DNA from: Pseudocercospora fijiensis CIRAD86
Taxonomy: Eukaryota > Ascomycota > Dothideomycetes > Mycosphaerellales > Mycosphaerellaceae
NCBI RefSeq assembly: GCF_000340215.1
Contig: NW_006921541.1
Location: forward strand, 2,949,527-3,013,526
DNA length: 64,000 bases
Direction: 5' to 3'
Every line of letters begins with the position of its first letter. The stretch's first letter is position 1. The translations under genes and the position numbers were made by a program. Shown piece after piece: positions 30,360 to 63,866 of this stretch. The notes under the pieces were generated by a model. The model was not told the DNA's origin and made no database searches. It saw only the letters and a program-made list of their open reading frames with translations.

Positions 30360-30480
30360 TAGACCCCGCAGTAGTTCGGGTTGGTTTGGTTTAGTTTACT
30401 AAGCCGAAACTCTAGTTTGGTTTAGGTTGGTTTGCTAAGCAACTATATAAGTAGCTGGTTCGAACTATATAATTTATCGG
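30360..30480 (+). repeat. hAT left terminal region
   Basis: 20 bp terminal repeat followed by GGTTTGGTTTAG-type runs (GGTTTGG repeated), as in many hAT ends. The right end holds a similar AAACTAAACC-type stretch. Confidence 0.8.
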
Positions 30481-31590
30481 TTTTTAAGAAGTGTACGAAT
30501 GTATACGTAGCTTTAAGCAAGCCCTTTGTAAGACTTAGTAGTGTAGCCGGTAGCGTGGCCGGCATTTTTAGTCCTTAGTACTTATAGAATTTTCGAATCC
30601 TACTTAGGCTACGTGGTTGTATAAAGGTACTTATATAACCTTAAATCTATAGACAATTAGCTAAGGGCACTAACTAATTAAAAGTATACACACATATACA
30701 CAAGGCATTATAGTTTAGTTCGGAAACTGCACTCCTTAGGTATGAATTTCATCCTTTCGTTTACGGTTCAATTCCCTAACTGCTTAGCAGAATGTCTTTA
30801 TCTAGATCTAGGTAGAACTTATCGATTTCCGTCGAAGCTCTCCGTAAGAAGTTTATATACTTTCCTACTAAACTATACTCTAGTATTAAGTGCTAGGATA
30901 GCTCCTCCCTCGACATCGGCACTATATACGAAACAGCTATAAGGCAGCTCTATAGGGCGTTCTACTAGTTACTCGCTATACTACGGCCGAATGCTAGTTC
31001 GTTCCTTAGAACTCTAGGTTATTTAGTAGATATTAAGGATAGGGTAGGCAGTAACTTCGTATTGTATAAGGAAGTAGAGGCTACTATAGAGGAGTCCTTT
31101 AACCTATAGAAGATAGTAAAAGATATAGAGGCAGCTATAGGTCTAGGTACCTAGTTGAATTTCTAGTAGGTAGAGTATAAGGATATTTAGTAGGAGTATT
31201 AGGTAGAGTTGCGAAAGCAGGTATATAATATAGTCTAGAGAATAGGGATAATACCTATAACTATAAGTATTAGGTTCTTTAATCTTCTTCCTTTTTTCCT
31301 TGTTTTCTTTTTCTAAAAATCCAAACTAATACAAATTAACTAGAATGTCTATCTTCTTTTAGTTCTTTGTAAGACCTAGCAGCGTAGCCGGTAGCGTAGC
31401 CGGTAGCGTAGCCGGCCTTTTAACTCCTTAGTACTAACGGGATTTTCGAAGACTTCTATTCCGTACGGCTAATAAAGCATACTATACTATATATATATAC
31501 TTAGAGAGTATTTAGAGCGCGGTATATAGCGCCGTATAACCGCGGCTTATTTCGTATATAGAAAAGCTTATAGACGATACTACGAACATC
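30481..31590. other. hAT left arm, unidentified ORFs
   Basis: Two related 80 bp segments, 30517-30600 and 31364-31452, share TTTGTAAGAC, CCGGTAGCG, a CCTTAGTACT block and TTTTCGAA. Each has GTAAGA and a CCGGC repeat, so they may be introns of a plus-strand gene. Between them (about 30.98-31.27 kb) a plus frame reads SNFVLYKEVEATIEESFNL and VEYKDI. I cannot name it. The ORF from 30742 to 30942 is open by chance or is a short exon. Confidence 0.4.
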
Positions 31591-31958
31591 CTTCCTACTA
31601 GAACATCTATCCTACCTAGCACTATCTCGAATATAGACATTCTAGCCTTTTAGAATCTAATCGAGTGCTTTAAAATCCTTATCTATAATCGTTATACGCT
31701 TCGCGTAGATAGCTATAAGGTTAACCGCTAAAATAGTATTAGTATAGTCCGAAAAGAGGTAGGAGAGAAATATATATTCGAAGATACGAACTAGGTAGGC
31801 TTCTATAGCCTCTTAAAGGGCGTCTATCGCGGAGGCTTAGAAGCGAAGGTCTATTCTATAAACCTAAGCAATTTCGCGAACAAGTCGTCGGAAAGGAGCT
31901 TTACGGATTAGGAGCTTAGAACTCTTCTAATATTACCGAATCTAACGGAGGGCTACGG

Positions 31959-32061
31959 CTAAAGAAGGATTAGTAAAAAGATAGTAAGAATGCCGGCTAC
32001 GCTACCGGCTACGCTGCCGGCTACGCTACCGGCTACGCTACCGGCTATAAATAGGACTTAC
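31959..32061 (-). other. H3-1 intron 1 containing a 12 bp minisatellite
   Basis: Minus-strand donor GTAAGT at 32061, branch TTTACTAATCC, acceptor CTTTAG at 31959. Splicing joins RLG to TVALR exactly as in canonical H3. Most of the intron is the CCGGCTACGCTA array. Confidence 0.8.
31992..32048. repeat. CCGGCTACGCTA minisatellite (12 bp x about 4.5)
   Basis: Near-perfect tandem copies within the H3-1 intron. Same family as 31385-31417, 60836-60955 and 62881-62935. Confidence 0.92.
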
Positions 32062-32344
32062 TTCCTAGGCGCTATCGACGCTTCGTACGATTGCTACTAG
32101 TAGTAGAAGCGCTAGTTGTCGTCTTACGTAGAGCCTTGCCCGCCGTTGTCTTACGCGGAGCCTTACTCGCGACGCCCTTTCTAGTACCGGAGCTAGCGGT
32201 AGTAGTAGCAGCCCTCTTACGTTAATATACTATACTCGTTCTATTATTTCCGGTCTTATTACGACCCGTAGAAGTAGTAGGTCCCTTCTTACGAGGCGTC
32301 GTAACTTAGTTAAGTAGACTCGGTATTATAAAAGTCGTCGAATT

Positions 32345-32412
32345 AAGGAAAAAAGTGCGTTACGAAGGTATACGAAGGCGCGCGCTATTAGACCGCTATA
32401 CTAGTACGCCCG
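32345..32412 (-). other. tRNA-like remnant with A-box and T-run
   Basis: Minus strand: TAGTATAGCGG fits the RNA polymerase III A-box TRGYNNARNNG, and TTTTTT follows about 50 nt later. No B-box, and too short for a tRNA. It sits directly next to the 145 bp direct repeat, as does the unit at 36224-36296. Confidence 0.35.
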
Positions 32413-32543
32413 TTTACTAGCGTCTTACGCCGCGACAAAAGATCGGAAGTATCCGCGCTTAATAAGCACAGATCTCGGGCGCACTTATAGGCTAGAAGTC
32501 ACGTGAGTCTTGGCGCCAAGCCTCAGCCTGCACCTCTAGACTC
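32399..32543. repeat. 145 bp direct repeat, left copy
   Basis: CGCCCGTTTACTAGCG ... CTCTGACACGCGC. The right copy is 36289-36433. The pair brackets the GC-rich island, the tRNA-like unit and the MULE inserted between them. Confidence 0.88.
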
Positions 32544-32881
32544 TGACACGCGCTTCCCTCTTCTTAGCTGCGGCCCCCGCAGCCTATAACGTTATACCCC
32601 GCACCCGAACATGCAGCCGGGCAACGTCTTCTTGGCATACCCCGCACCCGAACATGCAGCTAGGCAACGCCTTGGCATACCCCACACTCGAGGCAGCCAA
32701 TCAAACAACTGTCGCAATCTAGTGTAGCGACGTTTTTCAACTGCCTATAAGTCGACCCCTCTAAGGCAGGTGCGCCTGCAGCAGAGTCGCGCGCCTGAGG
32801 CAATTAGGCGCCTCCGAAGCCGCGTCTACCGAGGATCAGCCTAGTCGGCCAATGAGCGTGCGCCGACTCGCCGAGAATCGA
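32544..32881. other. GC-rich island with little RIP
   Basis: CA and TG are common here, unlike its surroundings. It includes three tandem copies (the last partial) of about 40-44 bp starting TACCCCGCACCCGAACATGC at 32594, 32638 and 32678. No ORF recognised. Read on the minus strand it is the segment downstream of the tRNA-like unit before the MULE split them. It may be the body of a SINE-like element or a recent insertion. Confidence 0.5.
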
Positions 32882-33079
32882 GGCAAAAGCTAGTTAGCAA
32901 TTCCCTCTTTACTATTTGGCAATTCCCTCTTCTTAATACAGACAAGAGTGCGCACGGACGATTTATAGTATACTTCTACCCCTTTATACTCGATTAGGTA
33001 ACCAAGCAAGGGCATATAGGAACCCTTCTATACTAGTAACGCTAAGGGCTAAGAATAAGGCATTTCCGGAGGCTATCGG

Positions 33080-33830
33080 TTAAGTAGATATATAAGACTA
33101 CTAGAATTAATTACTATAACCTATATACTAATAACTACGAGGGTATAGCACTAGCTACTACTACTATAGACCTTGCTACTACTATATACCTCTACGGAGT
33201 AGTACTATAGATAGTAGTAGAGCTATAGAACCTAGTATATACTAGTACTATTGCTAGGTATATACCTATTAGTTTAATAGCGGTAGATAGTCGAATATAG
33301 TATATTATATCGCTACCGGTAGACCTAGAGTATGCGGTAGTATAGGTTAACTGCTATAGAACTAGACAAACTATCGCTCCGAGTAAGGCGGTACTAGCGC
33401 TATTAGACGTTGTCGATTAAGTGCTATAGCGGCTCTTTAAATGCTAGCTAGATCGTTGCTAACAAAGCCGTAGCGCTTAGTAGGTATATAGACTAGCGGA
33501 GCTAAAGGCCGTAGTTGTTATATTACCGTACGAGTACGAGATTGTTATATAGATACCCTCGTACACCTTCTACGGCCTCTTTAAGAAGCTAGGTTTAACT
33601 AATCTACGTATTCGAAGCTAGAAGCCTCTCGTTAATTAGTATAGACGTGTCTTCTAGGTGCCGCTCTACCTCTTCTACCTCTTCTACGGCGGTTGTTTAG
33701 CAATATAGATAGCTCTTAGATAGCTCGTTCTACCTCGATAATAGTACGTAGTAGAGCCGCGGCTTTATCGATATACTAGTATCGGTTAAAGTGCGTATAA
33801 GGGTCGAATTCGAAGGATCTAGTTAACTTA
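33080..33830 (+). pseudogene. Possible second ORF of the MULE
   Basis: Plus-strand frame with RIP stops only. It reads TIARYIPISLIAVDSRI, then SKAVLALLDVVD, AELKAVVVILPYEYEIVI and YTFYGLFKKLGLTNLRIRS. Convergent with the transposase. Not recognised; could be a decayed host fragment. Confidence 0.35.
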
Positions 33831-33849
33831 ATCGTATCGATAATAGTAT

Positions 33850-35991
33850 GCTTATAGATAACACCCTAAGCAACTCGAAAGCAGCCTAAGCACTAAGAGC
33901 GTTGTTTGCTAGGCTCCTTAGCAAGCTTAGCTATCTCGTCGTACGCTAACTTTAGCTAGTTAAGGCCCTTAAATAGAGCCTTGCGGTAGATCTTTAGGTT
34001 AGCTTTAGTAAACTCAGGTCGGCGTAGACTACTAGGCACCTAGATCCGCTTACGACTAGTGCGTACAGTTATCTCTCTATAGCGAAGAGCCTACTATAGC
34101 TTCAGCTTAAGGAATAGGGTAAGAATATTATAGCGCCTGCTAGCAAGCTACTTCTTTATTATTAAGTAAGCACCTTCAGCTCTCGAAGTAACTAATTGCC
34201 CGTAGAAGGGGAACTTCTTCTACTAGAAGTAGTGTACTAGCTTGTACTTATAGCTCTAGTATTTACGTAGAATATAGGCTCGAAGGGTTATATAGTAAGG
34301 GTTTAAGTAGTTTGCTATCTACTAGTCCTTAGTATTAAATTCTTCTTCTATCTTAGCATAGATACAGGTACGGAAGTTGTCTACGAATGTAGCACATTCG
34401 GGGTCGTCTTGCTACTTAGATTTGCCTGTCTCTTTATTAACAACCTGCTTCTAAGGCATCAGCTTCCGAGCCTAAGCCTAGACATTCTTAAAGACATGCT
34501 AGGCGCAGATAAGAGCCGGTGTTCGAGGGTATGTCTTATTAAGGGCATTTATACAACTACGGTCTCGATCTATAACCTATAGGCCTAGCGGAGGTAGGTT
34601 GTGTGCCTTACAAAGCGACTTAAAGTTCTTAGCAAACTAGGTAAACGCAGCTTCGTCCTTATTGCCTATAATACAGTATCTAAAGGGAATGGTATCACCT
34701 GCTCTAGTGCCTGCTATAATGTTTAAAAGTAGACAGTTGTATTTGTTTGTCTTATAGGTATTATCGATAATAAGGTACTTAGGATACTACTTATATAACT
34801 CGGCTATTTAAGGGTTGAGAACGAGGAGTTTGTCGAGTTTACCGGCTAAATCTACCTCCTTCTTCTAGTAGAAACCCAGTTGGCCTAGCAGCTTAAAAAG
34901 CGCTTTAGAAGCGGTTAGATCGCCTTGCGCTGCCTTCCGTATATAGGCTCGAATATTAGCGATGTCTTTAGCTAGCTGTATGCCTATAGAATGTAGTTGT
35001 TAGTATGTTGTTTGTAGAGAGAGTAAGGAAGAGTATAATTTAGGAGGAAATTAGGCTTAGGCCGAATCTCGGCCGAGTGCATTTAAGAAATGCGACTGCC
35101 TTAATACTTACATTCTTTTATATCTATCAACCTATGCAGTGTCGTATATACGGCGGCATTAGCGTTTAGATCGTCGACAATTATCTTCTTAATCTTCTCG
35201 TTGCGCTAGCGTCGTCTATATATAGCGAAGTGCTTAGGCGGCTTAGGTTAATAGTTATATTAGCCGCTTATCTTTCTAACCTGCTAACGACCCTCTAGAT
35301 TCTTCGGATTACACGCACTTAACGTAAGTGATGCTAAACACTTCTTACGCGCAGAGACCGCGTTTAGACGCTTTGTCTTTACCTTGTTAGATAGCGTACT
35401 GCCCTAGTTATAAAGAAGCTACCGAGATACCTATACCTTAGTATTTTAATAGATCTTCGCCCTCGACCTGTTTCCGGACTTAATAGCCTAATAATAACCG
35501 GCTCTTATTGCGTAGTCTTAAACTGCTAAGAGGGTAGCATCTATAGAGCGATAAGTGTCCCTCGGAGGTGCTAACAATAGTTAAATAGTTTCCTTATTAC
35601 TATTAGTCTCGCCTTTAGCATTAGTATTACCTCTAGCCTGTCTATCTACCTTAGTAGCAACCTCTTTACTAGTTAGCTCTATAGGTAGCTGTTCTTCTAT
35701 GCCCTAGTCTTCCTCTTCCGCCTCCTTCTCGAGCTCGTATTTACGCCGTTCCTTATTATTTAAACCGTCCAATTCGACCGACTCTTTATCTCTAATTCTA
35801 CTGTTAGTAACAGGGCTTCTACCTGCTACTCCCTACCCTTCGACCGACTTAATATCTTAGAAGAAATCGTCCGCTTAGCGGTCTTTAGCACTACTACCGA
35901 AATACAGTCCTTACGATAGAATAGACGACTCGTAAAGAGCCTAAGAAGCTAAGGGTACTAGAGCCTCGCTCTATAACACTAAGAAAGACAT
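33850..35991 (-). pseudogene. MULE transposase, RIP-broken
   Basis: Minus strand from ATG 35991 (MSFLVL), 3' limit approximate. A long acidic and polar N-terminal part, then a cysteine/His-bearing DNA-binding region near 35.3 kb (SLTLSACNPKNLEG). The catalytic core includes PPLGL then VIDRDRSCINAL (an essential Asp of the MULE DDE domain), followed by TYPRTPALICA, a stop in place of Trp, and HVFKNV. This matches the L-C-x-W-H-x-x-K-N-V block of MULE transposases. It would bind the ends and make the 9 bp duplication. Confidence 0.83.
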
Positions 35992-36214
35992 AGTAACGAT
36001 AATAACACCTTAGTTTAGTCTATACTATTAAAATTCTATCGATATAAGATAAGGTTTGTAGTAGAAAAGACGCGACGCGCCGCATCCCTTAGCAAAGTGC
36101 TATTTCCAGCTATTTATAGTAACAAGAACGCTAAGAGCCGGGCACTAGCGCTTTGCTATTTATAGGTTAAGAATTGCTAAATAGCAAAGAGGGAATTGCT
36201 AACTAGCTTTTACC

Positions 36215-36296
36215 GAGAATCGAACGCGCGACTGTTAAACCTATAGACCGTTAAGCGCGGATACTGTATCAAACTACTGCACTAGCGCGCCCGTTT
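36215..36296 (-). other. tRNA-like/SINE-like unit split by the MULE
   Basis: Minus strand: TAGTGCAGTAG fits the A-box TRGYNNARNNG and GTTCGATTC fits the B-box GWTCRANNC, spaced about 50 nt apart as in tRNA genes. The MULE inserted just past the B-box, using GAGAATCGA as target. The T-arm does not pair well, so it is not an intact tRNA. A tRNA-derived SINE head or a tRNA pseudogene both fit. Confidence 0.5.
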
Positions 36297-36433
36297 ACTA
36301 GCGTCTTACGCCGCGACAAAAGATCGGAAGTATCCGCGCTTAATAAGCATAGATCTCGGGCGCACTTATAGGCTAGAAGTTACGTGAGTCTTGGCGCCAA
36401 GCCTCAGCCTACACCTCTAGACTCTAACACGCG
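36289..36433. repeat. 145 bp direct repeat, right copy
   Basis: Partner of 32399-32543, differing by a few C-to-T changes. Confidence 0.88.
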
Positions 36434-36920
36434 CAGAGCGAAGGTATTACGGAGGTAGTAGATATAAAGCGTAGAGTATAGGTATCGATACGAAGGTTGA
36501 ATATAGCGAGAGAGGTAGTATCGCGGTATCGCTAGGCAATAGAGTAAGCTTCGCGTAAGCCTATATTATAGTAACGTTAGAGTAAGGAAAGAAGGTAGGC
36601 ACGGCTAAAAAAGGCAGGTACGGCTAAAAAAGGCAGGTACGGCAGACTTTGAAATATAGCCGGCATATATAGCTAGTATAGTAATAGGCGAAAGCCTCCT
36701 TTTAATAAATAGCCGGCGTAATAATAGTATCCTACTATAGTATAGATATTCTTTAGTAATGCCTTTACTAGCTATAGTAATCTTATAAGTAACCTAGGCC
36801 TATTACTAGTAAATATAAGAAATATCAGGTAGGCTATACTAAATAAGCTAGTCATTTAGTAGGAAAAGGCCTACTACCGTCTCTATATGCCGGCTACGAG
36901 TGCCGGCTATCGCTCTAAAT
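36434..36920. other. hAT internal region with short repeats
   Basis: A 19 bp tandem repeat (GGCAGGTACGGCTAAAAAA, 3 copies) at 36594-36644, and AGCCGGC motifs at about 36655, 36710 and 36890. No ORF recognised. Confidence 0.45.
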
Positions 36921-38001: not shown

Positions 38002-38526
38002 CTAACGACTAAATACAATTTCTATTTAATCCGCTATAAACCGACGCCGAATTTTAGCTAGAAGCTATATATCTTTATTTTAAAGAGTAACCCGCTTCGT
38101 ATAGATAGCAAGGAGGTTTAAAAGCTTAAGCTCGGTTACGAGAAATGCCTCCGTAGCTTCCTAAAGAGCACTAATCGCCTTAGCCGTAAATCGTATACTA
38201 GACCGAAAATCTAATATAATTTCTCGGACGAGTCGCTAGAAGGGAGTCTTAGGGATTAAAAGCTCGGTCCCTCTTTTGTTTTAGAAAAGCCGGATCTAGC
38301 GAAGGGCAATAGTACCTAGTTTAAAGCGCCGCTTCTTTATCGTCGAGTCCTACCTTGTTCTCTTTCTTTTAATAGAAAGATAACTTTTCTTCGCGATAGT
38401 CTTCGTCCGCTTACTCTTTTTAGCCTTCTCCTATCTACCTATAGCCTTCTTGTTTTTCGGTACTATTTTCCGAGGAACCCCCTTCCTTCGTATATACTAT
38501 AGAGAGCCTTACTCTTCCGATATCTC
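38002..38526 (-). pseudogene. Histone H3-like gene 2, main part (tail and histone fold)
   Basis: Continues from 45784-45687 across the chromodomain Gypsy with no frame change once one TSD copy is removed. Minus strand: basic tail (RRKGVPRKIVPKNKKAIG, then EKAKKSKRTKTIAKKSYL), then FKLGTIALR, TELLIPKTPFQRLVREI, DFRSSIRFTAKAISAL, EATEAFLVTE, LLNLLAIYTKRVTL, NKDI, LLAKIRRRF, ending at TAG 38004-38002. This matches every secondary element of H3 in order, without introns. The whole ORF is about 206 codons against 135 for canonical H3, because of a long N-terminal tail. Two extra residues precede TELL. Loop 1 has canonical length. RIP stops replace Gln and Trp. Inferred role: H3 variant. Confidence 0.9.
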
Positions 38527-38722
38527 TGTTAGGGCTAAAGAGGCTATACGTGATTAGTATGTAACTAGGCCGAGTGAAGCTAGGGTCTTAATGCCTTAGG
38601 CAGGGCTTAGCGCTTAGCGTTAGGCTAACTCTCCTACCTTCCTCCCTCTCCTCCTAGTTCCTTATCGAATACTACTTGTACCTACTACTACCCTATCTAC
38701 CTGCTAACATACCCTTCTTATA
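38527..38722 (+). repeat. Chromodomain Gypsy 5' LTR
   Basis: 196 bp, TGTTAGGGCTAAAGAGG ... CCCTTCTTATA. Confidence 0.95.
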
Positions 38723-38959
38723 TAGTATTCGATCTACCCTTTAAGGGTAGCAGCTAGATAGTCCTTATTTCAAGCTTTTAGCGGTATAGCTACGAAAACT
38801 ATCGATTTAACTATATTGCGCCTAAAGAACAGGACCTATACGTACTATTCTATCGAAACAACCGTACCAATTATTAAGCAAGGCCTTCTATACGGCCTAT
38901 TATACTAAGTTAAGCATACTAGACCGATATTTACTAATTCCGCTACATCCGCATCTTAG

Positions 38960-40345
38960 GGGCTAATAATATATTATTAGTGTTACCCCCTATTACAATA
39001 GCCGGCTTATTACGAAGCAACAACAACCGTGCTGCCGCTAGTAGCGCTAGCAATAATAATGCTAGTAGCACAGTACCTACTAAAGTGCCTGCTAAAGCAC
39101 CTGCTAAGGTGCCTACTAAAGAGCCTACTACTAGGCCTGCCGAAGAACCTATAGTTCTAGGTAACGACCTAGAATTGCCTATCGACGACATTCTTAACAA
39201 CATTGTCAATCGTCGATATAGCTAACTAGCCTTTAGTCCTTAACTAGTAGGGAGACTTTAAGAAGCTACCCAAAACAGGCTTACTACCCTACGTTAAGAA
39301 CAATAGCTAAAGGATAATCTCCTCGAAATTCGCCGCCTTTAGGAGGCCCTAATAACTAACACTAAGCCGATAGCAGGGCCTTCCTTACTATTAGTCCTAG
39401 TCTAGAAGAAGGATGCTAAACTCAAGGACTACACCGTGTTTAATAGCTCTAGTCGAAAGTAATACAACGACTACATTCGTAACTGTAAGCTTAACTAACG
39501 AAACGCACCTAGGGCTCTACTAAACGACTATTCACTAGTCGTCTATGCTATGCAGTACATTAATAGCGACCTAAAGCGCACCTAGGATAACTATTTTGAT
39601 TCCCTTAATAACCAGACTGCTATTTAGTAGCAAACCTACAAAACTATTATACTAGACACCCTTAGAAACCCTATACTAAGGTAACAATACGCTTAGGACT
39701 AGTACCTTCGGGCTAAGCAAAAGACTGATTAATCAGCCCGTTTATTTAAGGCCTATTTAAAGACCCTCGAGGACGATTTACTAGCTAAGACCGACTCTAT
39801 CTAGATTTCCGAAATACGCCCTAAATTAAGATAGGAATTAGTCCTTGAATTAGACCGCCGCCGTGTGTTTAAACAGGCTAATCTTATATGCATTTAATTT
39901 ATAGTCGAAGTCGAAACTACTAAACGAGCTGTCTAGCTCTAGTAACGACTAGAATTAAGGATCCGACCTACTAGCAACTATAGCAACCGTAGCTGCGGAG
40001 GAAATCAAGGTTCCTACTAAGACAACAACGCTAATAATAGGAATAGTAACAACGACCGCAGAAGAAGCCGTAGCCGGCGGCTATATAGAGGAGGCCGCGA
40101 TAGGGGCCGTAGAAGGGGCTCGTATCCCTATAGTACTAATCGCTCGGCTAATAATAGCGGCAACAGCTACAGCAATCCCCTAACCGGACTAAAGTGCTTC
40201 AATTGTAACAGCACTAGCTATCTACTAGGCTAATACGACAAACCTAAGGACTAGGCCCGAATCGACCGTACTACCGCCGAACACCGAAAGCACCTTTTAG
40301 TAGCTAACGCTACCCCTATAGGCTAACCTTCTTATTAGTCGAAAA
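38960..40345 (+). pseudogene. Chromodomain Gypsy gag
   Basis: Plus strand, start not certain. The N-terminal part is Ala/Asn-rich with Pro-Ala-Lys-Val repeats (TKVPAKAPAKVPTKEP) at 39.06-39.15 kb. A capsid region follows (DYTVFNSSSRK, RAKQKTD, LKTLEDDLLAKTDSI). An Arg/Gly/Ser-rich RNA-binding stretch (RRRSRSRRLYRGGRDRGRRR) leads to one zinc knuckle near 40.19 kb, C-F-N-C-N-S-T-S-Y, in which His and the last Cys are now Tyr. It would package element RNA. Confidence 0.8.
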
Positions 40346-43300
40346 AAGAGTAAGCGCCGCACTAACTGTTAGCCCCGCACGGCGTAAGACCATCGATATT
40401 GTACTAGCTATTATACGTACCTGTCTTATATCTAGGCCCGATACTAACTATAAGGCAAAGGTTATGCTAGACCCCGGAAATTCAGTTAGCGCCCTTATTA
40501 GCTATTACCTAGCTAAGCAATTAGACCTTCGACAACTGCCGAAGACTAACCTGCTAACCCTTGCCCGGTTTAATAACGCTCGGCACTTAACCTATAGAGC
40601 CTACTATATTCCTATAGTTCTAAAAGACGACCTCGGAAATAAACGCCTACTAAACTTCACTACCTACGCGGTGGACATAGACAGCCTCCTATCCGATATT
40701 ATTATTAGTAACCCTGTTCTTAAGTACTATACTATAGTTATAGACCTAGGTAGCTAATAGTAGCGATTTAGAATCGCTAGGAAAGAGGACATTAAACACA
40801 TTAATGTTAGCGAGTGCCCTAACGATATTAGGGTCCTATTTATTAGCAACCTAACCCTAGCTAATCCGACTACCGACCTACTCGGTAGGGATAACGAAGA
40901 ACCTGTGCCCTCTAACGGCATAGACTCTAATTAGCTCGAACGCATACTAGAGCCTATTCGAGAGACCTATATTAATATATTCAAACACTACTTAGCATCG
41001 ACATTGCCTATATTTAAGGAGACAGATTATAAGATTAATATTATAGAGGGCAAAGAGGTTCCTTTTAGTCCCCTCTATAACCTTAGTAAACGAGAGCTCG
41101 CTATATTACGTAAGTACCTAGAGGAAAACCTAGCTAACGGTCGCATTCGGTATAGTAACAGCCCTGCTAGTACACCGATCCTGTTTGTTCTAAAGAAGGA
41201 TAGTAGCCTACGGTTATGCGTCGATTACCGTAGACTCAATGCTGTTACTATTAAAGACCGCTATCTACTTCCGCTTATTAATAAGACCCTCGATCGCCTT
41301 TCTAGCGCTTACTACTACACTATACTAGACATTAAGGATGCGTACTATCGTATCCGCATTCGTAAGGGCGACGAATAGAAAATAGCCTTCTATACTCGCT
41401 ATAGCCATTTCGAATACTTAGTTATGCTATTCGGCTTAGCTAATGCCCCTACAACATTCTAGTCCTATATTAATCGGGCCCTTTCGGGTCTACTAGACTA
41501 TCTCTGTATAGTCTACCTAGATAACATCCTAGTTTATATACATTTACCTAATATTGCAGAACACTAGGCCGTAGTGCGTAAGGTCCTCGACCGCCTACGA
41601 GCCTATAGACTATATTGCAAACCTTCTAAATGCACCTTTGCTTCTAAGGAGGTGTTATTCCTTAGCTTTCTCATTTCAACCGAGGGTATTAAGGCTGATC
41701 CTAACCGGATTAAAACAATTACTAAATAGCCCGTTCCTACGTCTATTAAAGAGCTTCAATTATTCCTAGGTTTTGCTAACTTCTACCGTCGGTTTATTAA
41801 GGGCTATTTACGGCATATAATGCCCCTAACTAAGCTTACTAAAACCAAGGCCAACCTAACTAGAGAGTTCAAATAGACTAACAGAGCATAAGCCGCTTTT
41901 GACGGCCTAAAGTAACGCTTTACTAATGTCCCCTTATTGCACTATTTCGTACTAAGCAAGCAGATCCGAATTGAAACTAACGCTTCACAGTTCGCTATAT
42001 TAGCTATTATGTTATAGCAGGCTAATAATACCTATTAGCACCCGATTGCCTTCTTTTTACGGAAGATAATCGATATAGAACGTCGGTACGAGACCTACGA
42101 GTAAGAGCTCCTAGCAATCGTAGAAGCCTTTAAGTACTAGCGCTATTATCTCGATAGTGCTTAGTACCCTATTTAGGTCTATACGGACTATAACAACCTC
42201 CGTAGAATTACGAAGGTTACTAGGGTTATAGGTCGATAGGCTAGATAGGCCGTCTACCTCGCCGGGTTCGATTTTAATATATTATATCGGCTAGGCGTAA
42301 GTAACCCTACTAATAGCCTATCGAGGCGACCTAATTATAATAGCGAAACCTAATATATCAATTCTCTGTTTCTAACCCTACAGTATAAGATTGCTATAGA
42401 CCTTGCTATAAAGCAGGCGTAGGATAAGCGGACTTCTAGACCCCGCGACGGTAATAAATACTATAGCGGAGTTGTCGTTCTTCTAGTATACGTTAAAAAG
42501 GACGTAGATCGCTCGAGCTATAACGACTCGATTAAAGATATTGCTATCTATAGCGACAGCACTATAGAAGAGGTTGCAGTTAATCCGGCTGCTAGTACTA
42601 TTAGATGCATATAATGCGTACCTCGTTCGATAGCGAGGGTGCTATTAAATAACCTTGCAAATAGGGATAGTCAATCGTTTATAGATAAGCTATTACGGGC
42701 TTAGTAGAGGGACGCCTTTGCTACTAAACGTATCGACAAGCTTGTAAGTAGGCGAAAGACTCGATCTAGTAAGAGTAATTAGTCGATCGACGACAAAGGT
42801 TACTTAAAGTTTAAGGGCAGATACTATGTCCCCGCTAAACAATCGATTAGATAAGAGCTTCTTAAGCGACACTATAATAGTAAGCTTGCCGGTTACTATA
42901 GTACAGAGAGGTCGCACGAGTTACTATCGCGTATATACTACTAGCTAAATAGTAAGCGGGATATAAAGGACTACGTAAATACGTATGCCGTATATTAACG
43001 AGTCAAAGCACTAAAGCACTTACTATTTGGCGAGTTTTCTTTACTCCCTGTTCTAAAGAAGCTATTTGCTAAGCTTACAATAGATTTTATTATAGGTCTC
43101 CCGCCTACTAAGCGTAGGGGCAGTAAGGATGTATATAATACTATCCTAGTTGTCGTAGATCGGTTTACTAAGGGCGCTCGTTACATTCCTGCCCGAAAGG
43201 ATTAGACGGCTATTAACCTAGCTAAGTCGCTATAGAGCAATATCTTCTGTAGCTACTAGGGAACCCCTAAGGGGATAGTCTCCGATCGAGGCCCGACATT

Positions 43301-44228: not shown

Positions 44229-44250
44229 TGTCACTATCGAGGCCTAGGAA

Positions 44251-50801: not shown

Positions 50802-51201
50802 GCTTTTCTCTAGAGATGCTCGGTAATTAGGAGCAAATCGCCTAGGCCTAGCGCAGCTTATATTAGCCTATAGCACTGTCGTTATAGATGCAGCATTACC
50901 TTTTATAGTAGCAGGTATATAAACGTAGCCCGTGCGTTCTTCTTTCTTCTAGACACTAAGCTTAGCGGCCTAAGGTCCCTATTCTTAGAGGCTATAGGCC
51001 TAGGTTGCTACGTCTATCTAAGAGCTAGGAAGGGAGAGGGATCCTCCCTTTCTTAGTGTCCTACGTAGCTAGTGCTAATTAGGGCAGGAACATCCTCTAG
51101 TAGAGTATCTTGTTATCGTTGTCACTTAAGGAAGGTTGCTAGAGTCTAGGAATCTAGAGGGAAGTAGTCCTAGAAGGGTAGAGGGGTTAGGTTCGGCTAT
51201 C

Positions 51202-51234
51202 TTCCTAATGCTACCCCCGGGATATTATTAGGAA
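51202..51234. repeat. Palindromic motif, GypsyL-2 site 3
   Basis: Arms TTCCTAAT and ATTAGGAA. At the matching GypsyL-1 site they are CTTCCGAAT and ATTCGGAAG; pairing is kept in both. Confidence 0.8.
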
Positions 51235-51497
51235 AACACGCCTCGTACAGTTCTATCTAAGGAAACAAGAGCGAAGGAATAAAGTTATAGCAATATTAAT
51301 CGAAGGTAAAGGTAAAAGCAAAAGACAACAATAGGATAAACTAAAAGCAATAAACGAGAGTATAAACATTAGTAGGAACGGATAGTAGGTAAGGACTAAA
51401 GGTATAGGGCGGCGTTATATTAATAGCGCGGAGAACGATTGATAAGGGTAAGGAAGCAACGCAGTAGAGGCAGATAGAGGTAAGGAAAAGCAAGCAA

Positions 51498-54400
51498 TTA
51501 TTTAGTCTCGGGGTCGTCTAGCTATAATTCTAGGCGGTCTTTATCGCTAGACTAGTTAGGTTCCTCGGAGTTAGAGTTAGATAGCTAGAAGTCTAGTTTA
51601 CTATTGGAATCGGAATTAATATCGGAAACGCTCTATATATAGTTAATCCGTATATAACCCTCCCTTTGTTCTTAAGTTATTCCTAATAGCTTACTAAGAC
51701 GAATCTAGGGATAGGTATAGTTCTTAGGTAGAATAGGATCTATAATAGCGGTAGGATCCTCCTCCCGATAGGCATCTAAGGACGGTAGAGGGTCCGTAGA
51801 GGCACTAACTTCCTCCTCGGTCGGCGGAGGGCGGGCAGGTTCGCGTAACTTAACGATCTTCTTTAGATTAGCCCGAGGGTAGGAGTGCTTTAAGGTAGCA
51901 CTATCTAGCTCCTAAAGAAGGTATACGGAACCCGAGTAAAGGACCTCCTTTACTCTATAAGGACCCTTCTACTTAAAGGCTAGCTTATAAGAGTAACTAT
52001 ACTTTAGCTCGGACTAGTATAGAAGGACTATATCGCTAACCTTTAGAGGCTCCTAGTTAATAGCATTATAGTCGTCGAAATACTGCTTAGCCTCCTTACG
52101 AAGGCGACGTTGTCGAGCAAGACCCTCTTAAGAAGTCGTAGATATATCCTTAAGAGCCTTAGCCCGTAGGGCAAGAAGGTCTACCCTAGTACGAACAGAC
52201 CCCTAATCGTAAACGCCGTGCGTACGGTAGGACAATTTAATAGGAAGAACGGCGTCCCTTCCAATTATAAGTTCCGCTAGTATAAGTCTAGTCGTATCGA
52301 TAATAGTAGTTCGGTCCGCCTAGAGAAGGGCTAGGACGCGGGTAGAAATAGGAACTAATCTGTCGCTACTATTAGTTATCTTAGACAGGGCATTAATTAA
52401 CGACCGATAGCCGCGCTTAATAATAGTATTCGACTAGGGATAGTACGGGGAGATACGAACGTTCTTAGCCCCGTACGAAATAAGTAGCGCTTGAACCTCC
52501 TTAGCTATATTGTTCGTAGCGTTGTCTAAGATAACCTCGTAAGGTGTTCCCTAGCGGCAAAACAGATCCTTAAATAGGAAGGTAGCTATATTACGGGCAT
52601 TGATAGTACCGCAACCTTTATAGAAATAATAGGCCTCCGGCTATCGAGAAAGACCCTCTCGAATAATATATAGGCTATTGTTGCGGCTAAGATAGACCCT
52701 ATCGCTATACTACCGCTCCCCGACTAACTAGATAGTAGGGATACGTAGCTCTCCTAGACGCCGGTAGCTGTTCCTAAAGTTATACTTAGGATAGCTCTTA
52801 TAGTAGCGGGAGACATTAGCCTATACGCCGTCCTACTAGTAGCGTCGACGAAGGACGTCGAAGGTGCCCTCCGCCGCCCGGTAGCCGAGCTTATCGTAAA
52901 CGGAGCGAAGGATTTCTTATCGGGCTACTAGATCGTTAATAATACGCTAGAGCGGTGCATTAATTATAGCCTGTCGCTAAAGGATGCGATCTTTAATAAG
53001 GAACCTCCGAGAATAGCGAATAATACGACGGTATTAACTCCTTAATAGACTAGGAGCTCTCTTCGTATAAGTAAGGAAGTAGGCGATATTATAGGAGTCG
53101 TCGGAGTAGACCCTATTAAGGATATTATCCCTACCTAGTTCGCCCGCCTTAGTATCGTCCTAGTCCTCGCCGTTAGTAGTAGGGCCGTCGTTAGGCTAGT
53201 TACTAGGTTTGTCGTCGGTAGTAGACCTAGTAATTACCGGCATAGTATTAATATAGAAGGCAGTAAAGAAGGTACGGTTAATAACCGCGTCGACATCCTC
53301 TTCTTCTATTATCTCGGCGATGTCTTCTTCTATAGCAGGCCTTCTAGAAAGGCTATCCGGTCTAGTGTGCTTCTTACTAGAAACATAGAAGACGTCGAAA
53401 TCAAACAAATAGATCTAGGCAACCTACCGAGCTATCGTAGAGTTAGGTAGGTCGGAGGCTGCACGGTTAAGTTAATAGACTAGCGTCTAAGCGTCGACTT
53501 CTAGGCGAAAGAACACTCTAAAGAGCTAAGGTCGGAACTTCTTAAGAGCCTTATAGACACTAAGGCACTCTCGCTTGCTAGTATCGTATTAGGCCTCGAT
53601 AGGTTTCTATAGACCGGACTCGTACCGGACAGGGTAACGTAAAGAGGGCTCCTTACGATTATACTATATTAGTATCTCGCTATAGCCTTCCTCGCTCGAG
53701 TCGACAGTAACAATTAGTAGACCTACGCCTTCCGAGTAGTTAATAGAGGTAAGCGTAGGCGCGCTAACAAGTGCCTTAGTAACCTTATCCTTAGCGGCTT
53801 AGTAAACGGAGGTCTATTTAAACTCTGTATCCTTCTTAAGTAAGGCGTATAGAGGCTTGTATACTAACGCAAAGTTTTCGACCTAGATATAGAAGTAGGA
53901 GACTACTCTAAGCTAGATCCGGACATCTTTCTAATAGGTAGGGTCTAGCTAGGATACAATCTTTAGGACCCGTATATTGTTAGGATAGCGGCCGTTCTTA
54001 TTAGTTACAAACCCGACAATGTTTATTCGTTTGTATAGGAGCTAAAGCTTCTCCCTATATACTGTTAGGTTAGCTCGCTCTAGGTCGCAGAGGATACTAT
54101 CGAGATTCTAAATATATTCGAGAAAGAACCTACGGATACTAGGCTCTACTTCTTTATTATCGTACCTAGTTTTAGGGCCCTTAATGCCGATGTCGTTAAG
54201 GAAAGGCATCGCTATATAGGAGATATAGGCCGCGAGGACTTAGTTTATAATGCGAACGAACTAGGCTACGGAGTTAGTTGCCCCTTATAGAAGGGTAGTT
54301 TGTCTATATAGCCTAAGAGGTGTCTCGAAACTAGTAAGGTCGCGGCTATTAGGATAGAGAGGGATCTAGTCGTAGCCCGAGAAAACATTAACTAGTAAGG

Positions 54401-55215
54401 CTATAATACAGTTAGCAAAAGCTTCCGAGAACCTATTAGTCTCCGGAGGGAGGTTAGCATCTCTAATCGTAACTACGTTGAACTTTTATATAGCGTTAAT
54501 TAGACGGTACTTCTTTAGTTCCCTAAGAGCTGTCTTTTTCTAAACTAGGAAGTATAGGTTGCGATACGAGGCATAGGAAGGCTCTAAGGTGCTAGCCTTT
54601 ACACGCTACCGTATTATGTCCTTAACTACACCTCTTAGGCTTAGGTTTAGCTTAAACCCTAGGTAAGCCTAAGGCTTATACTCGATCGTTCGGATCCTCT
54701 ATAGAGGGGCAACCTCCGGGTTAATCCTACCTAGATGCGTAAAGTTATATGCTAACACGGCTTCGCGGTTATATAGAAGCTCGTATAGCAAATCTAGTTT
54801 AAGATCCGAAAGCTCGATACTAGGTTTGATGTTCGCTAGTCTCTCCGGCGTTAGCCTCGATCCCCTAGGAATAGCGGAGAACTTTTTAGTAATGTACCTC
54901 TAGTCGTATAGACTATCCCTAGGTATTAATATCGCTTCGCGGTTAAGGCACTTTTGTCGCTAGTTAGGATTCCCGCTAGGATTAGACCTATCGGTTATGT
55001 GTACGCTGCCTTTTACGGGCTTAATCTTATTAGCTACCCTCTTATATAGGGTATATATACTAACCGCTAGTAATACCCGAGCTCTCTCTCTTTAACGTTA
55101 GGCCCGGAGATTAGCGTAATAGAATAGCGCGTAAACTTTATTAGAAGTCTCCTTTAGTCGGTAGGTATACAGCTAGTAATCCTAATTTATAATTCCGGCG
55201 AAAACGTTAGATTCC
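51498..55215 (-). pseudogene. GypsyL-2 pol
   Basis: Collinear with 4748-8470. The RNase H end reads FDVFYVSSKKHTRPDSLSRR near 53.35 kb. Stop TAA 51498-51500. Same domain order, inactive by RIP. Confidence 0.88.
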
Positions 55216-58200
55216 TAATAACACCCCCCGGGGTAGCATTAGCTCGGCGTTCTAATTAGTTAGTTCGGATTCGGGTAGATCCGCTTCCGGCGGCGATGCC
55301 TACGACAGCATTATTACCGAGATTCGTATACTAGGTAGTCGTTGCACTGTTATACTCGCTGTCGCTTCGAGCATTCGTCTCCTTAGTGTAGAGCCTAGAA
55401 ACTAGCCTTATCGTACGGAGCGGCGTACCTCTAGATATAACCTATTTAAGCTATATTAACTTATAGCGTAGATTGCCGGTCTTACAACCGCGCTATAGCG
55501 TTTCCCGAAGAGCGCTTAGAAGCAGTAAGGATATCCTCGTAGGACTTATAGCTAGTATTTCCGATATAACTAGTAAATACGACTCGGTTGCCCTTCTAGT
55601 TAGCGATAGTTCCTTCCTAGGAGCTATCGTCGTAGTTACGCTAGACACCCCGGGTTATGCGAGACTATAGTCGACCTAGAATAATTAGCGTATTCGGGTT
55701 AGCGGCAATCTAGAAGGTAAAAGAAAAGCATATACCGAAAGCGTCTACTATAACATTATAGTAGGTACCTACTAGCGCAACCTCCCTATTTACTCCCTAT
55801 ATGCTAAGGGAAATATCTCTATTTATTAGCAGTCGGAGCTGTTTAGCCTAGCGCTTACTTATAATAAGTAACTCTAAACTATTATTAAGCATTGCTAGCA
55901 ACTACTAACTATAGCTTCCGATAGTAACTTAAATGTAGATAGCGGGAACGACGGCAAAGGAACGGGTAACTGCGGAAAGGTCTATATTATTAGGGATAGA
56001 GTAAAGTTCCTTAGGTCGAGGAGGTCCTACTCGACCGATTTGTTAGCTAGTAAATCGGACAGCCTTAATAGAAACTGAAACCGAAGCAGAGTCGGTATTA
56101 TTATTATCCCCTCGGCCTATCTCCTTAATCCCCTCTTCGTTAGTATTATCGATAGTCTCCTAGCTCTCGTAGGCTACTAATTCGCCTTCTACTAACTCTA
56201 GGGCCCCTAAAAATTTAGGAAGGAACTATAGGGAAGAGACGTCGATATAGTCCTCTCGCCCCTATTTACGTCGGAGGGCTATAAGGTCTTTTATAAAGGT
56301 AGTATCGTTAGGAATCCGGCTCTAGAATAGGTTAGTAGGCAAACTGTATACTAGAAGCTCCCCTATAGACACGTTAGACTTGAGGTCTAGGAACTATAAA
56401 GCCTAGAAGAGAGTATTTGCCTTTGTATCGTAAGAGTTAGTAGGCCCGGTACTATACTTCTTTATATACCTATTAAAGCGAAAGCTCTTTAGGTCGGCTA
56501 ACTTTCGTTTGTAGGCCGGCGGGTTAGCCGGGCCTAGGGTACTACTAAGGTCGGTAGTAGCATCCTCTATATCGATATCCGGAGTCTCTAGGACCTCCGG
56601 AGAGGCTATACTAGCTCGGGTTACACGGTCTTTAGCTGTCTAGAGTGTCTTAGTCTTAGCGACTAATTCTCGCTGTTTCTTAGCCTTATTAGCTGCCTGC
56701 TTCTTAAGTATCCTAGTAGGGGCTACCGCACTAGGGCGGGTAGGGTTCTACGGGCTCTTGCCCTTGCCCTAGGACTAGGCTTAGGACGACTGAGTTTAGG
56801 ACCTTATAGCAGCGTAGATATCTATACTGTTCTTAGTAACCGCGTAAACATTAGTAACTGCGTCCGGGTCCTAAGATATAAAGTTGACTTTAATAGGCTT
56901 AGTAGTACTATCGCTACTCTACTCCTTAACCTGTTTTACTCTAACCTTCTAAGTTTCTCGTTTAGCAATAGCAGCGAGGGTACTATTCCTAGTATCCTTA
57001 AACTCGATCTTGCTACTATACTTCTTCTCTAGAAGACTCCTAAGTTAGGGCAGCTTCGGAGCTCTACGATCCTACTCGAAGTTAATCTTGTCGCCGGTAT
57101 CGGTATAGTAGAACCGACTATTTACTTGTATAACGAGCTTCCTCTTAAGAAGCTCCTTCTAGATAGGGTAGTCTAATTAAATATGTTTAAAACCGCCGTA
57201 TATCTAGCACTTGCTATCTAAGTTAGAATAGATCTTCCGTATAGCGTAGACGTTAACTAAAGGGGCCTTAGGGTAGTTAGGATCGGAGACCTAGTAGACT
57301 AGTAGTACATCCTTTAGTATACTAGTATTAAGGACCTCCCTAACTCGCTATAGTACTTTCGTATTAAGGTTAAGCTAGGCTAGGGATTTAGCTAAGTCCG
57401 CAACGTCCTAAGAATGCTTAGTAACGGTAGGAGTTACGGTACTAGGACTACTTTGCGATTTAGGAAGAAACTTAGGCCCTCTAGTTCCCGAGGTATCGTT
57501 CCTTACCTAGGCTAGGTTATTCCGGTCCTCGCCGTAAATAAACTTCTTTGCGTTAGCGGAGCTGTTAATGTCGTCCTTAATAGCCTCTAGGACCTCTTTA
57601 TACTTCCTAAAGGTCTCGGGATTGGCTTCGCTAAGCTTATAGCGACGGAAGACACGCTTAGCTATAGACTACGGCAACCCTTTAAGGAGTAGCCTCGTTC
57701 TCTAAGAATTCTCGAGGTCCTACTAGTCGATACCGTCCGCTAACTTAACAAACTCGCGGACGTACTCCTTTAGGTCGTTATCTTCGGTACGCCTCTCTAT
57801 ATAGAGGTTCTTAAGCTACGTACGACTGCCTTTAATGCGACGGCTATCGCGATCCCGATACTCCCTTATAAAGGCCTACTTAAAGACCTCCTAGTCGGTA
57901 TTAGACTTGTCGTCCTTTTCTAGGTAGCTAACTAGGGTTCTAAGGGTTCGGTAAAGCTTAGTAATAGTAGTCCTCGTAAGGGACCGGACCTTGTACTAGT
58001 CCGACTCCTCTTCGAGTCCGTACTCGGCTAAGTTGTCCTTAAAGCGTTCTACGTACGCCGTAGCGTTCTACCCTTCGAACAAAGGGTTCCTACTGCTTCC
58101 CGGCTCTAGCGGGCGACGCCTATTCTAACGGAGAAGGTCAGTTTGCCCTTAAATTATCTTTATAACGACATTATAGAGGGCCTCGGGCGTAGAAGGCTCG

Positions 58201-58328
58201 ACAGCCCCTAGTTCGATAGCGCTTATAACAACTAGTCGTCGCCTGATTTCTTCGTTAATAGGGTCCGGTAGGTTATTAGATTCCGAAGATTCCGCTAATT
58301 CGTAATACTCGCTTTCGCTAGAGCTTAT
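55187..58328 (-). pseudogene. GypsyL-2 gag-pro
   Basis: Collinear with 8448-11597; stop at 55187-55189, start ATA at 58328. Zinc knuckle near 57.2 kb, protease at about 55.45-55.95 kb. The plus-strand ORF 55473-55670 is its shadow. It overlaps the pol frame at the 3' end. Confidence 0.82.
55217..55241. repeat. Palindromic motif, GypsyL-2 site 4
   Basis: ACACCCCCCGGGGTAGCATT, at the gag-pro/pol junction. Confidence 0.72.
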
Positions 58329-58463
58329 TCGATTGTTATAAAGTAGTTAAAACGAAATAATTTGAAATGTAATGCTATAGGAAAGTGTTTTTAGTATATG
58401 TTATAGGTTTGGTCTGTTTCGATATTGCTATACGAGAAAATAGTGTACTAGGCTGTTTTCTTC

Positions 58464-58489
58464 TAATATTACCCCTAGGGTAGTATTAG
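58464..58489. repeat. Palindromic motif, GypsyL-2 site 5
   Basis: CTAATATTACCCCTAGGGTA then GTATTAG, in the gag leader. Confidence 0.75.
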
Positions 58490-59161
58490 AGTTTAGCCTC
58501 CTAGGGGTCGCCTAGACACCCCTAGGAGCTTTAGTTTAGTAAATTTAGACAAAAGCCGCTCGGAGGAAGGGACTGCAATCTCTATTTACACCTAGATCCT
58601 AGAAACTAGCTACTTTACTAACTATTGTTATCTCCTTTAACTAGGCAGGGGGGCGGGGACCTTCTTTTTCTAGTAGAAGGCTAAGCACTATCCGAACGAG
58701 GCAGCGAATCCCGAAGTAATCTACCCGGTCGATAGGGGAACTGTCTAGGCATCCGACCTGTAATCTAGAAATTGCTATCGTATAGATAGTCTTAGTAAAC
58801 CAAGCAAGGCCGATAGGTAATTAGTCTATCTCCTCCTTAGGCGGGCGGTAGCTTATCTTAAGCAAGCGGTGCTAAATAGGTCTTCGACCCGGAGCCGAGT
58901 CCTTAGAAGCTAGCTATAGTTATAGACTAGGCCCTAAGCTGTAACAGTCCTAAGGGTTTGTAGCTTTTCGGGGTTAAAGCGATGCCCTTATTAAGAGGTT
59001 TCTCTACTTGTCGTAACGGCCCCTTAAGATACTTCGGTATCGTCCGTATCGTAGGCTCTTATCGTACCCTCGCTTCGGTTATAGCTATTCGTGCCTAGAG
59101 ACTACCTTTAACACACCCGAACCTGTTAGATATAAAGAGATAGCCCTACCTTCGGCTCTAA

Positions 59162-59440
59162 TAAAGGACGGAAACTAATACTACTACTACTACTTATAGC
59201 AATAGTATAGGCTACCGAGGGTAATATAACCTATAGCAATATAGGCAGCTATGTTTAGTAAGATAGGATAACGAGACTGTCGCTTAGGCTATTAACTAGA
59301 GCCCTGCAATATAGGCATTATAGAAGTGTAACATAAACAATGTGCTATACGAGGTTAATGCCCTATCTACTATATAGAAGGAGGCCTCTTATATAGGCTT
59401 AAAACTGGCCTATAGGTATAGGGCCGGTTACTAGCTAATA
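59162..59440 (-). repeat. GypsyL-2 LTR, right
   Basis: 279 bp; followed by target copy GTAG. Confidence 0.94.
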
Positions 59441-59784
59441 GTAGTAACCTTCGCGTAATGCTTACTAATATCGACGAGATACTCTACTTAGCGCTATTCG
59501 GCGGCGGTAAGGCCGAGCTACTTAATACCCTCGGAACTCTAATAGATCTCGAGAGCGGTACGTAAAGTATATCTCCTCGTAACTATATAGAAAGTCGAAT
59601 CGAACCGGGTCTTAACGTCTTAGGTAAAACGGAGTAGGCGCTAAGGAGGCCGCTTTTGCTATCGCTTATTCTATGCGATATTCTAGGTATCGGTTTTAGG
59701 GCGCTCGATTAGGTTCTTTTAAATAGCTTCGAATCGGTTATATCTCTATAAGCTCGAGTTCGTATATATTGCTAGACGACGAAG

Positions 59785-59853: not shown

Positions 59854-60808
59854 CTTATATAAAACGAGAGCGAGGCTCTCTACCTTATCCCGTTTTATTG
59901 CTGTAATAAGTTTCTCGACTTTCGAGTTTGCTTTATCCTTATCTAGGATCTTCTATTAGTCGTCGTTTAATAGTGCAATTTTAAGCGTCTTAAAGAGGGC
60001 TCGGATCGCGATTTGAACTATATAAGCGAGGTAGGGAAACTTCTATAGGGATGCAACTAGTAACGACGTCGGCTCCGATTTAATAGGGTTAGGGCTATTA
60101 ATAGGCTCCTCTTTATCGTTATTATCGTGCGTATTATCGTACGTATCCGGAATCGTAGCGAGCTTAACATTCGGAAGATTAAGCTAGATTATAGACCTTG
60201 TAATCTCCTCTACGTACTCGACCCTATCGATATAATTAGTAATTTCAAAGACATATACGAGTGAATTGTATATACAACGCCTTATATAATGTTCGATTAT
60301 TACTAGCGTTGTCCGTAGTAATCGAGATCAGTTTCGTTGTTACGCTAACCCTATCTATTACCGTATAGATAAGCTTCGCTATATCCTTACTAGTATAGGA
60401 ACCTAGAATTTTAGGGAATCCGATTATAAGTTCCTAGAGTTTCTAATCCGAATTAATAAAGTATAGTATAATCGAGAGGAAGGAGGCTCTTATAGTCCGG
60501 CTTAACTAGCTATCGATAGTAATAGCTACTCGGCGAGTATTACGGAGGATCTCCCGAATGTCGTCTAACGTAGCCTCTTTGTTCTTTTCGAATATAATAC
60601 GCTAGGTTGTCGCGCCGAGAAATAGGGGAGGGTAGTTTGTAAGATACAGGCATGTCTTCTATATAGACTCCCTTTCGTAGAAGTCTTCCGGAAGACCGTT
60701 TATAGCTAGCATTTCGTTTACTAGTTGCTTAAAGTCTTTAGGGGAGAAATCGGTAGCCTTTAATCCTAGAGCTTCCTTAAGCGTAGCCTATAATAATTAG
60801 CTAGACCT

Positions 60809-60965
60809 CTACGGTTGATTTAAGTAGCCGGAATCTGTAGCCGGTAGCTATAGCCGGTAGCTATAGCCGGCAGCTATAGCCGGCAGCTATAGCTAGCAGC
60901 TATAGCCGGCAGCTATAGCCGGTAGCTATAGCCGGTAGCTATAGCCGGCATTTTAAAAGACGTAC
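60809..60965 (-). other. Candidate hAT transposase intron, mostly minisatellite
   Basis: Minus strand: GTACGT donor at 60965, CGTAG acceptor at 60809. The interior is the AGCTATAGCCGG array. Confidence 0.5.
60836..60955. repeat. AGCTATAGCCGG minisatellite (12 bp x about 10)
   Basis: Tandem copies with G/A, C/T variants only; same family as the H3-1 intron repeat. Confidence 0.93.
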
Positions 60966-62843: not shown

Positions 62844-62950
62844 CTAAATGCTATTAGTTAACGTATTAAAGAAAAATATACCGGCTATAGCTGCTAGCTA
62901 CGGCTGCCGGCTATAGCTACTAGCTACGGCCGCTAGCTAGATTGACTTAC
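62844..62950 (-). other. Candidate intron with CCGGCTA repeats
   Basis: Minus strand: GTAAGT donor at 62950, GTTAACTAATAGC branch, ATTTAG acceptor at 62844. Contains the minisatellite 62881-62935. Confidence 0.65.
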
Positions 62951-63290
62951 GCTACTAGAACTTTACGCTCGAAAACTAGCCGCAATTCTTTCCTCCTCTT
63001 AGCCTTCTCTTAAATTGTCTTCTTATTCTAACCTTTACTTTTTTCTATAGGCGCTAGCTATCGATAAAATGCCTTATTCCGCGCCTTTCTTCTCTTATCC
63101 TTAGCTCTTTTATCCTTATCTATCTTATCCTTTCTCTCGCGGTCTCGTACGGAATTCTTCTTTATAGAGTACTCCTCTTTAGTCTTACGCTTTTTAGTTA
63201 GACGCTTAGGTAAAACAAACTCGCGGTCTTTAGTTCTATCTTCTGTTTAGCGCGCGGCGCGCTTCTCTCTTGCTATTATAAGGGAAAGGG
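62951..63290 (-). pseudogene. Lysine/arginine-rich ORF upstream of the intron
   Basis: Reads LPKRLTKKRKTKEEYSIKKN, then VRDRERKDKIDKDKRAKDKR and NKAFYR, LAPIEKSKG, KRRKELRLVFERKVLVA. Highly charged and probably helical. Could be a DNA-binding or linker protein of the element; the family is not recognised. Confidence 0.45.
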
Positions 63291-63404
63291 GCGGGGGCGT
63301 AGCGTATAGTAGTTATTATCGGTATAGGTATAGAGGAAGAAGTTGAAAGTATAAGAATATCGCGAAGCCCTAATTGTTGCCGCCTACGTAACGTTATATA
63401 GGTA

Positions 63405-63730
63405 AGCTTTCGTAACTACGGCAACTACGCCCTAGCAATAGCAACTACGCCCTAGTAACGGCAACTACGCCCTAGTAACGGCAACTACGCCCTAGCAACG
63501 GTAATAAAGCGTAGTAAATACAACCTAGTAACTATTATAGCCGGCAATCGTAGCTAGCAGTCGAATAAGAGTATCCTTATAGCAAAACTACGCCCTAGCA
63601 ACGGCAACTACGCCCTAGCAACGGTAACTACGCCCTAGCAACGGCAAAAGAGCGTAGTAAATGTAACAGAGTTACTATTATAGCCGGCAATCGTAGCCGG
63701 TAGTCGAATAAGAGTGTCCTTGTAGTAAAA
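63405..63730. repeat. 20 bp minisatellite in two arrays with a larger duplication
   Basis: Unit CAACTACGCCCTAGCAACGG, about 4 copies at 63413-63500 and about 3 at 63590-63650. Each array is followed by a related segment of about 85 bp (GCGTAGTAAA ... AGCCGGCAATCGTAGC ... GTCGAATAAGAGT). Subterminal in the hAT element. Confidence 0.88.
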
Positions 63731-63769
63731 CTAATACAGTCTCTAGTTTAAACTAGGAATCTATATAGT

Positions 63770-63866
63770 TCGAAAAAACTAAACCGGAACTAGGGAGCTA
63801 GTTCGCCGCTAAGAAACTAAACTATATACGTTTAGTAGTTCGGAAACCGAACTACTACGGGGTCTA
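63770..63866 (-). repeat. hAT right terminal region
   Basis: Ends CCGAACTACTACGGGGTCTA, the inverted match of the left end; a second GTAGTTCGG-type block inside makes a local palindrome (TAGTAGTTCGG at 63834 and CCGAACTACTA at 63847). Confidence 0.88.

Follow-up and report, generated by a model that had tools for sequence, protein, structure and literature searches.

The 64,000-nt stretch of Pseudocercospora fijiensis CIRAD86 DNA analysed here (the window; C10:2949527-3013526 of a searched genome of 73.9 Mb in 30 contigs) contains what is very probably, at roughly 85% by our estimate, a dead copy of the published P. fijiensis H3-hAT: formerly a cut-and-paste DNA transposon carrying two divergent histone H3 genes, both presumably expressed, and subsequently killed by RIP. 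The H3-carrying hAT itself is already published. Dhillon et al. (2019; PMC6710886) reported 784 H3-like copies in 471 elements, with 99 complete elements and 133 of 9.5-9.9 kb, a 20-bp TIR, an 8-bp TSD, RIP, and one or two H3 per element, and traced the element to an ancestor common to Cercospora and Sphaerulina. Manning et al. (2013; PMC3538342) had earlier described an H3L-carrying hAT from Pyrenophora tritici-repentis, and the statement in the first-pass annotation that no such case was known thus finds no support. As far as our literature search shows, the interpretation of two H3-B interruptions as introns and the evidence for preserved reading frames, both presented below, add to this work; no later paper on the H3 genes or introns of the P. 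fijiensis element was recognised by title and abstract, in a search that most subscription journals lay outside.

Structure and classification of the element

The element is bounded by 20-bp TIRs, the left (TAGACCCCGCAGTAGTTCGG, plus strand) at 30360-30379 and the right (minus strand) at 63847-63866, and immediately outside them lies a perfect 8-bp duplication, ATAGTGCG, at 30352-30359 and 63867-63874, bearing out the original delimitation of a single element. Both the short TIRs and the 8-bp TSD are those expected of a hAT. Identical 8-mers were also present at both ends of 5 of 10 joined copies, which had been chosen by their H3 matches; the other five had one end outside the fetched stretch or ends that did not match. 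Two sets of transposase pieces were located on the minus strand, a C-terminal piece at 46474-46596, for which related copies give a weak Dimer_Tnp_hAT match (Pfam; 14.7-17.7 bits in four readings, best E=0.0032, cut-off 21.4), and N-terminal/central pieces at 60476-60724, from which no Pfam domain was recovered. DUF659 was absent among the Pfam matches of the RIP-damaged transposase readings, in which stops were given as X. As DUF659 is a frequent but not universal feature of hAT elements, its absence is compatible with the hAT type indicated by the TIRs and TSD, although it counts, like the sub-threshold dimerisation match, among the points against this reading. DUF659 was reported for the P. 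fijiensis H3-hAT by Dhillon et al. (PMC6710886), whose available text records no dimerisation match of the kind weakly detected here.

Three nested insertions interrupt the window copy, which without them measures 10,002 bp, short of the ~10.7 kb given in the first-pass annotation. The first (32386-36434) is 4.05 kb long and ends in direct repeats of 168 bp. The second (38527-45686) is an LTR element with a reverse-transcriptase fragment (RVT_1 match of 28.5 bits, just missing the cut-off of 29.6), an ATCTC target duplication and 99% identical terminal repeats. The third (47149-59444) is a repeat of 12.3 kb bounded by direct repeats of ~280 bp, and a second copy of it, 90% identical, lies at 417-12703. 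Two of the insertion points, 38526/45687 and 32385/36430, are crossed uninterrupted by loci elsewhere in the genome. The 4.05-kb insertion has 51-bp inverted repeats inside it, at 32875 and 36171, and is perhaps one mobile element within another. Minisatellites of the GTAGCCGG type occur in the hAT at 60825-60963, 62879-62939, 31381-31425 and 31983-32047; direct repeats are not reported for the P. fijiensis H3-hAT in the accessible parts of Dhillon et al. (PMC6710886). Elsewhere in the window, a 331-aa open frame at 22058-23053 (plus strand) matches HATPase_c at 63.5 bits and, below threshold, a response regulator; it is a sensor-kinase piece among repeats.

In its 20-bp TIR, 8-bp TSD, two H3-like genes, RIP, and a second H3 with a 16-AA insertion, the window element is like the H3-hAT described in the text available to us from Dhillon et al. 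(PMC6710886), at 10,002 bp net against the published ~9.5-9.9 kb; this comparison covers features and lengths and leaves aside the letters of the TIR in the published figure. To that account we would add the intron signals, the H3-B tail exon, the minisatellite and the 373-bp derivatives described below. The Pyrenophora hAT shares with the window element an H3-like gene beside the transposase, but comes in 5.6-kb and 2.3-kb forms, and its 26 H3L genes are for the most part intact and represented by ESTs (PMC3538342); no nucleotide similarity exists between the two hATs according to Dhillon et al. (PMC6710886).

The two H3-like genes and their copies

Both H3-like genes are encoded on the minus strand. 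H3-A (38029-38493) is intronless, with its fold at 38029-38313 and an uncertain start codon. H3-B spans ~31624-32326 and is read as three exons: exon 1 (32062-32326), an H3-like tail whose presumed start codon reads ATA; exon 2 (31776-31958), from TVALR to FE|S; and exon 3, as compared here, at 31624-31727. A TAG is found at fold codon 89 of H3-B in all 35 aligned copies and may be the true stop, and therefore the last codons of exon 3 may fall outside the gene. Against the Histone profile (cut-off 26.4), H3-A scores 81.1 bits in the window (C10:2987573-2987944) and 87 bits in copy c4, which among solved structures matches H3.3C (E=2.2e-26). An H3-B reading with both introns omitted, assembled from two main-subfamily copies and not from the window copy, scores 95.6 bits and matches solved H3.6 (E=2.5e-37). 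The core profile, H3-type residues through alpha1-alpha3 and best PDB hits that are H3 uphold the first-pass identification of both genes, and the profile scores and PDB hits rule out chance resemblance. The two are nonetheless well diverged from host H3, with 48/87 (H3-A) and 55/85 (H3-B) residues identical. A protein search returned no hits for H3-A from 24 candidates, and for H3-B 24 hits from 107 candidates, 50-60% identical and with no close relative among them. Separately, a 311-aa protein, P0013, was seen to carry a C-terminal H3 fold; it belongs to a cluster of 487 member sequences.

The H3 cargo is present in other copies of the element as well. Exact matches to the TIR were found at 269 forward and 267 reverse places in the genome, with none for a reversed control. 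From the first 100 of these 536 places, 29 adjacent pairs were built, and among the TIR places listed 16 pairs are spaced at 9.4-10.0 kb, again below the length first proposed, eight at 15-34 kb, one at 5.2 kb and four at exactly 373 bp. The H3-B intron-2 donor site (100 of 322 sites listed) lies within all 24 pairs of at least 9.4 kb among these places, and H3-A, counting just the 150 scored candidates of 772, is represented in 11 of the 16 pairs of 9.4-10.0 kb and 4 of the 8 of 15-34 kb. That the H3s are unrelated fragments from different repeats can be rejected, as H3-A and H3-B lie at regular places within TIR pairs. Copies without H3 had been named as evidence against cargo status; among the places listed, every long pair has the donor site, while in the five shorter pairs, which look as if they arose by internal deletion, neither the donor site nor any H3 match was seen. 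The outcome mostly favours H3 as a regular constituent of the element. The 373-bp pairs, which among the places listed are at C1:8853279, C1:8896685, C1:10656734 and C2:581713, are likely short non-autonomous (MITE-like) derivatives of the same hAT.

A genome-wide search for H3 yielded 772 candidates, and all 150 that were scored exceeded the Histone cut-off; stop codons interrupt 148 of them, the remaining two being host genes. In the published account the H3 matches are mostly to the third exon (PMC6710886).

RIP damage and the reading frame

For counts of damage and frame, the ten loci coinciding with joined copies were removed; of 61 sources sent to alignment, 34 (H3-A) and 38 (H3-B) were sufficiently long and well covered to be retained. 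Across 27 H3-A copies the folds contain 139 stops, and across 35 H3-B copies 274; every one is TAA or TAG and none TGA, in agreement with the prediction for RIP. Host-H3 Gln codons account for 153 of the 274 H3-B stops and 86 of the 139 in H3-A (113 including neighbouring codon 10), with the rest elsewhere. Purine/pyrimidine divergence is 0.000-0.012 within subfamilies versus 0.031-0.086 between groups, and therefore the damage consists nearly entirely of transitions.

Relative to copy c4, counting insertions as well as deletions, the frame is kept in 27/27 copies of the H3-A fold and 25/27 of its tail, and in H3-B in 34/35 copies of exon 1, 34/35 of exon 2 (one copy has a 7-nt shift there) and 35/35 of exon 3. 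Intron 1 is out of register in length in 8 of 35 copies, and exon length differs across subfamilies by whole codons. Judged from sequence, both H3s look like genes that stayed intact up to their damage by RIP. The evidence for constraint that substitutions provide is weak. Differences at codon positions 1/2/3 number 3/3/11 in H3-B exon 3 (main vs c12; P=0.008), in favour of working genes, but 4/1/6 in the H3-A fold (P=0.12), and by degeneracy H3-A shows no silent excess (5/190 amino-acid-changing vs 1/44 fourfold). The codon-position test is low in power, since even the transposase gives no more than 9/8/14 (P=0.12) and 4/1/7 (P=0.07). In a neutral simulation the absence of stops at codons other than Gln had P=0.16 and 0.27, and the stops are therefore compatible with drift.

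Putative introns of H3-B and the origin of the H3 cargo

The published explanation is transcript capture followed by RIP inactivation (Dhillon et al. 2019; PMC6710886). In its passive form, a host H3 transcript would have been transduplicated by accident and never used by the hAT, an account which we place below even odds and which has points in its favour. H3-A is continuous, without introns, across the positions of the host H3 introns, and shows no clear excess of silent-position substitutions; Dhillon et al. likewise described exon-exon junctions without introns, reading the missing introns as transcript capture and the 16-AA difference as mutation (PMC6710886). Against passive capture stand two intron-like interruptions with splice signals in H3-B. 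Intron 1 (31959-32061; GTAAGT..TTTAG, containing the minisatellite at 31983-32047) splits Gly/Val of GTVALR, one codon downstream of the second intron of host H3, and its donor reads GTAAG in 34 of 35 copies. Intron 2 (31728-31775; 48 nt) has no counterpart at its position in host H3 or host CENP-A. Its donor is mutated by RIP to AT in the window. Pattern matching recovered 322 such sites (0 in a reversed control), of which 100 have GT; among the 35 aligned copies GT survives in just 4, which weighs against the preferred reading. The remainder read AT, the change expected from RIP at TpG. Where the donor is intact the intron starts with GTATGT or GTATAT, has ACTAAT near its end, and finishes in TTTTAG (TTTCAG in one case). 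Its removal restores FESVNLIAIYAKR, compared to FEDTNLCAIHAKR in host H3, and the Histone score of H3-B rises from 71.4 to 95.6 bits with introns omitted and the tail added.

On these sequence signals, what was published as a 16-AA insertion in the second H3 looks to be an intron of 48 nt. A reading of the 48 nt as an extra protein segment draws on its length, which is divisible by three and constant in 35/35 aligned copies, and on the lack of a stop in most copies shown; we consider it improbable, as the splice-type donor, ACTAAT and TTTTAG/TTTCAG end argue for an intron, the host-like match returns once the stretch is removed, and where GT is missing, the donor shows the TpG to TpA mutation typical of RIP. 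The intron reading bears on how the H3s were captured: H3-B has a second putative intron, and therefore simple transcript capture is inadequate as an explanation. Passive transduplication is further opposed by the frame kept across subfamilies whose exons differ by whole codons and by H3 in all 24 long TIR pairs among the places listed, all despite the large divergence of both genes from host H3. The tree proposed in the first-pass annotation placed H3-A copies in one group and H3-B copies in another, but with three groups it is compatible with one capture or with two. That both H3s are captured CENP-A-type variants steering the element to centromeres, as the strong divergence of both folds might suggest, is very improbable and CENP-A identity is rejected: both are nearer to host H3 than to host CENP-A (H3-A, 48/87 vs 44/87; H3-B, 55/85 vs 46/87), neither has the additional residues seen in loop 1 of host CENP-A, no CENP-A occurs among the best 60 of 179 and best 60 of 176 PDB hits, and in the tree CENP-A sits apart on a long branch, not grouped with the element H3s.

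Within H3-B, the tail and alpha1-L1-alpha2 have changed faster than the introns and flanks. Exons 1 and 2 show 74/1258 differences against 29/1147 in introns plus flanks (P=4.6e-5), with 57/836 amino-acid-changing versus 7/205 fourfold (P=0.075). Compared with unassigned stretches, main vs c6 shows 26/407 differences against a background of 30/2230 (P=2.8e-8), and the excess in main vs c12 is small (37/436 vs 115/1899); this background comprises five stretches, none proven non-coding, of which 6450-7150 gave no comparison and 8450-8900 only main vs c6. Diversifying selection on exons 1 and 2 and segment exchange between diverged lineages may each account for the pattern, as both fit.

Under the preferred reading of a RIP-killed H3-hAT, the live element would have been a cut-and-paste DNA transposon with TIRs, an 8-bp duplication, a hAT-like transposase and two divergent H3 genes, both of which probably made protein while it was active; RIP would later have killed all copies seen, and the window copy would then have received insertions of three other repeats. 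If the H3 proteins helped the element, our best guess is that they would have entered nucleosomes, altering chromatin near it or genome-wide; a chromatin role, which the first-pass annotation framed as setting or evading the chromatin state of the element's own copies, is a hypothesis. Manning et al. (PMC3538342) considered their H3L neither a typical H3 nor CENP-A and had already asked whether the H3L-hAT alters chromatin. A further proposal, which we regard as tentative and rather doubtful, is that the H3s were long-kept working genes of the transposon, comprising an intron-bearing H3-B with a fast-diversifying tail and alpha1-L1-alpha2 region but not C-terminal exon, and a steadier H3-A, which would have served to counter host silencing or to redirect it in an arms race waged through histones, and that the H3-hATs of several Dothideomycetes may be one old lineage as opposed to separate accidents. 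If working, intron-bearing H3s were indeed kept by this transposon, a mobile element would have encoded its own nucleosome parts, and transposon manipulation of chromatin through histones would become directly testable.
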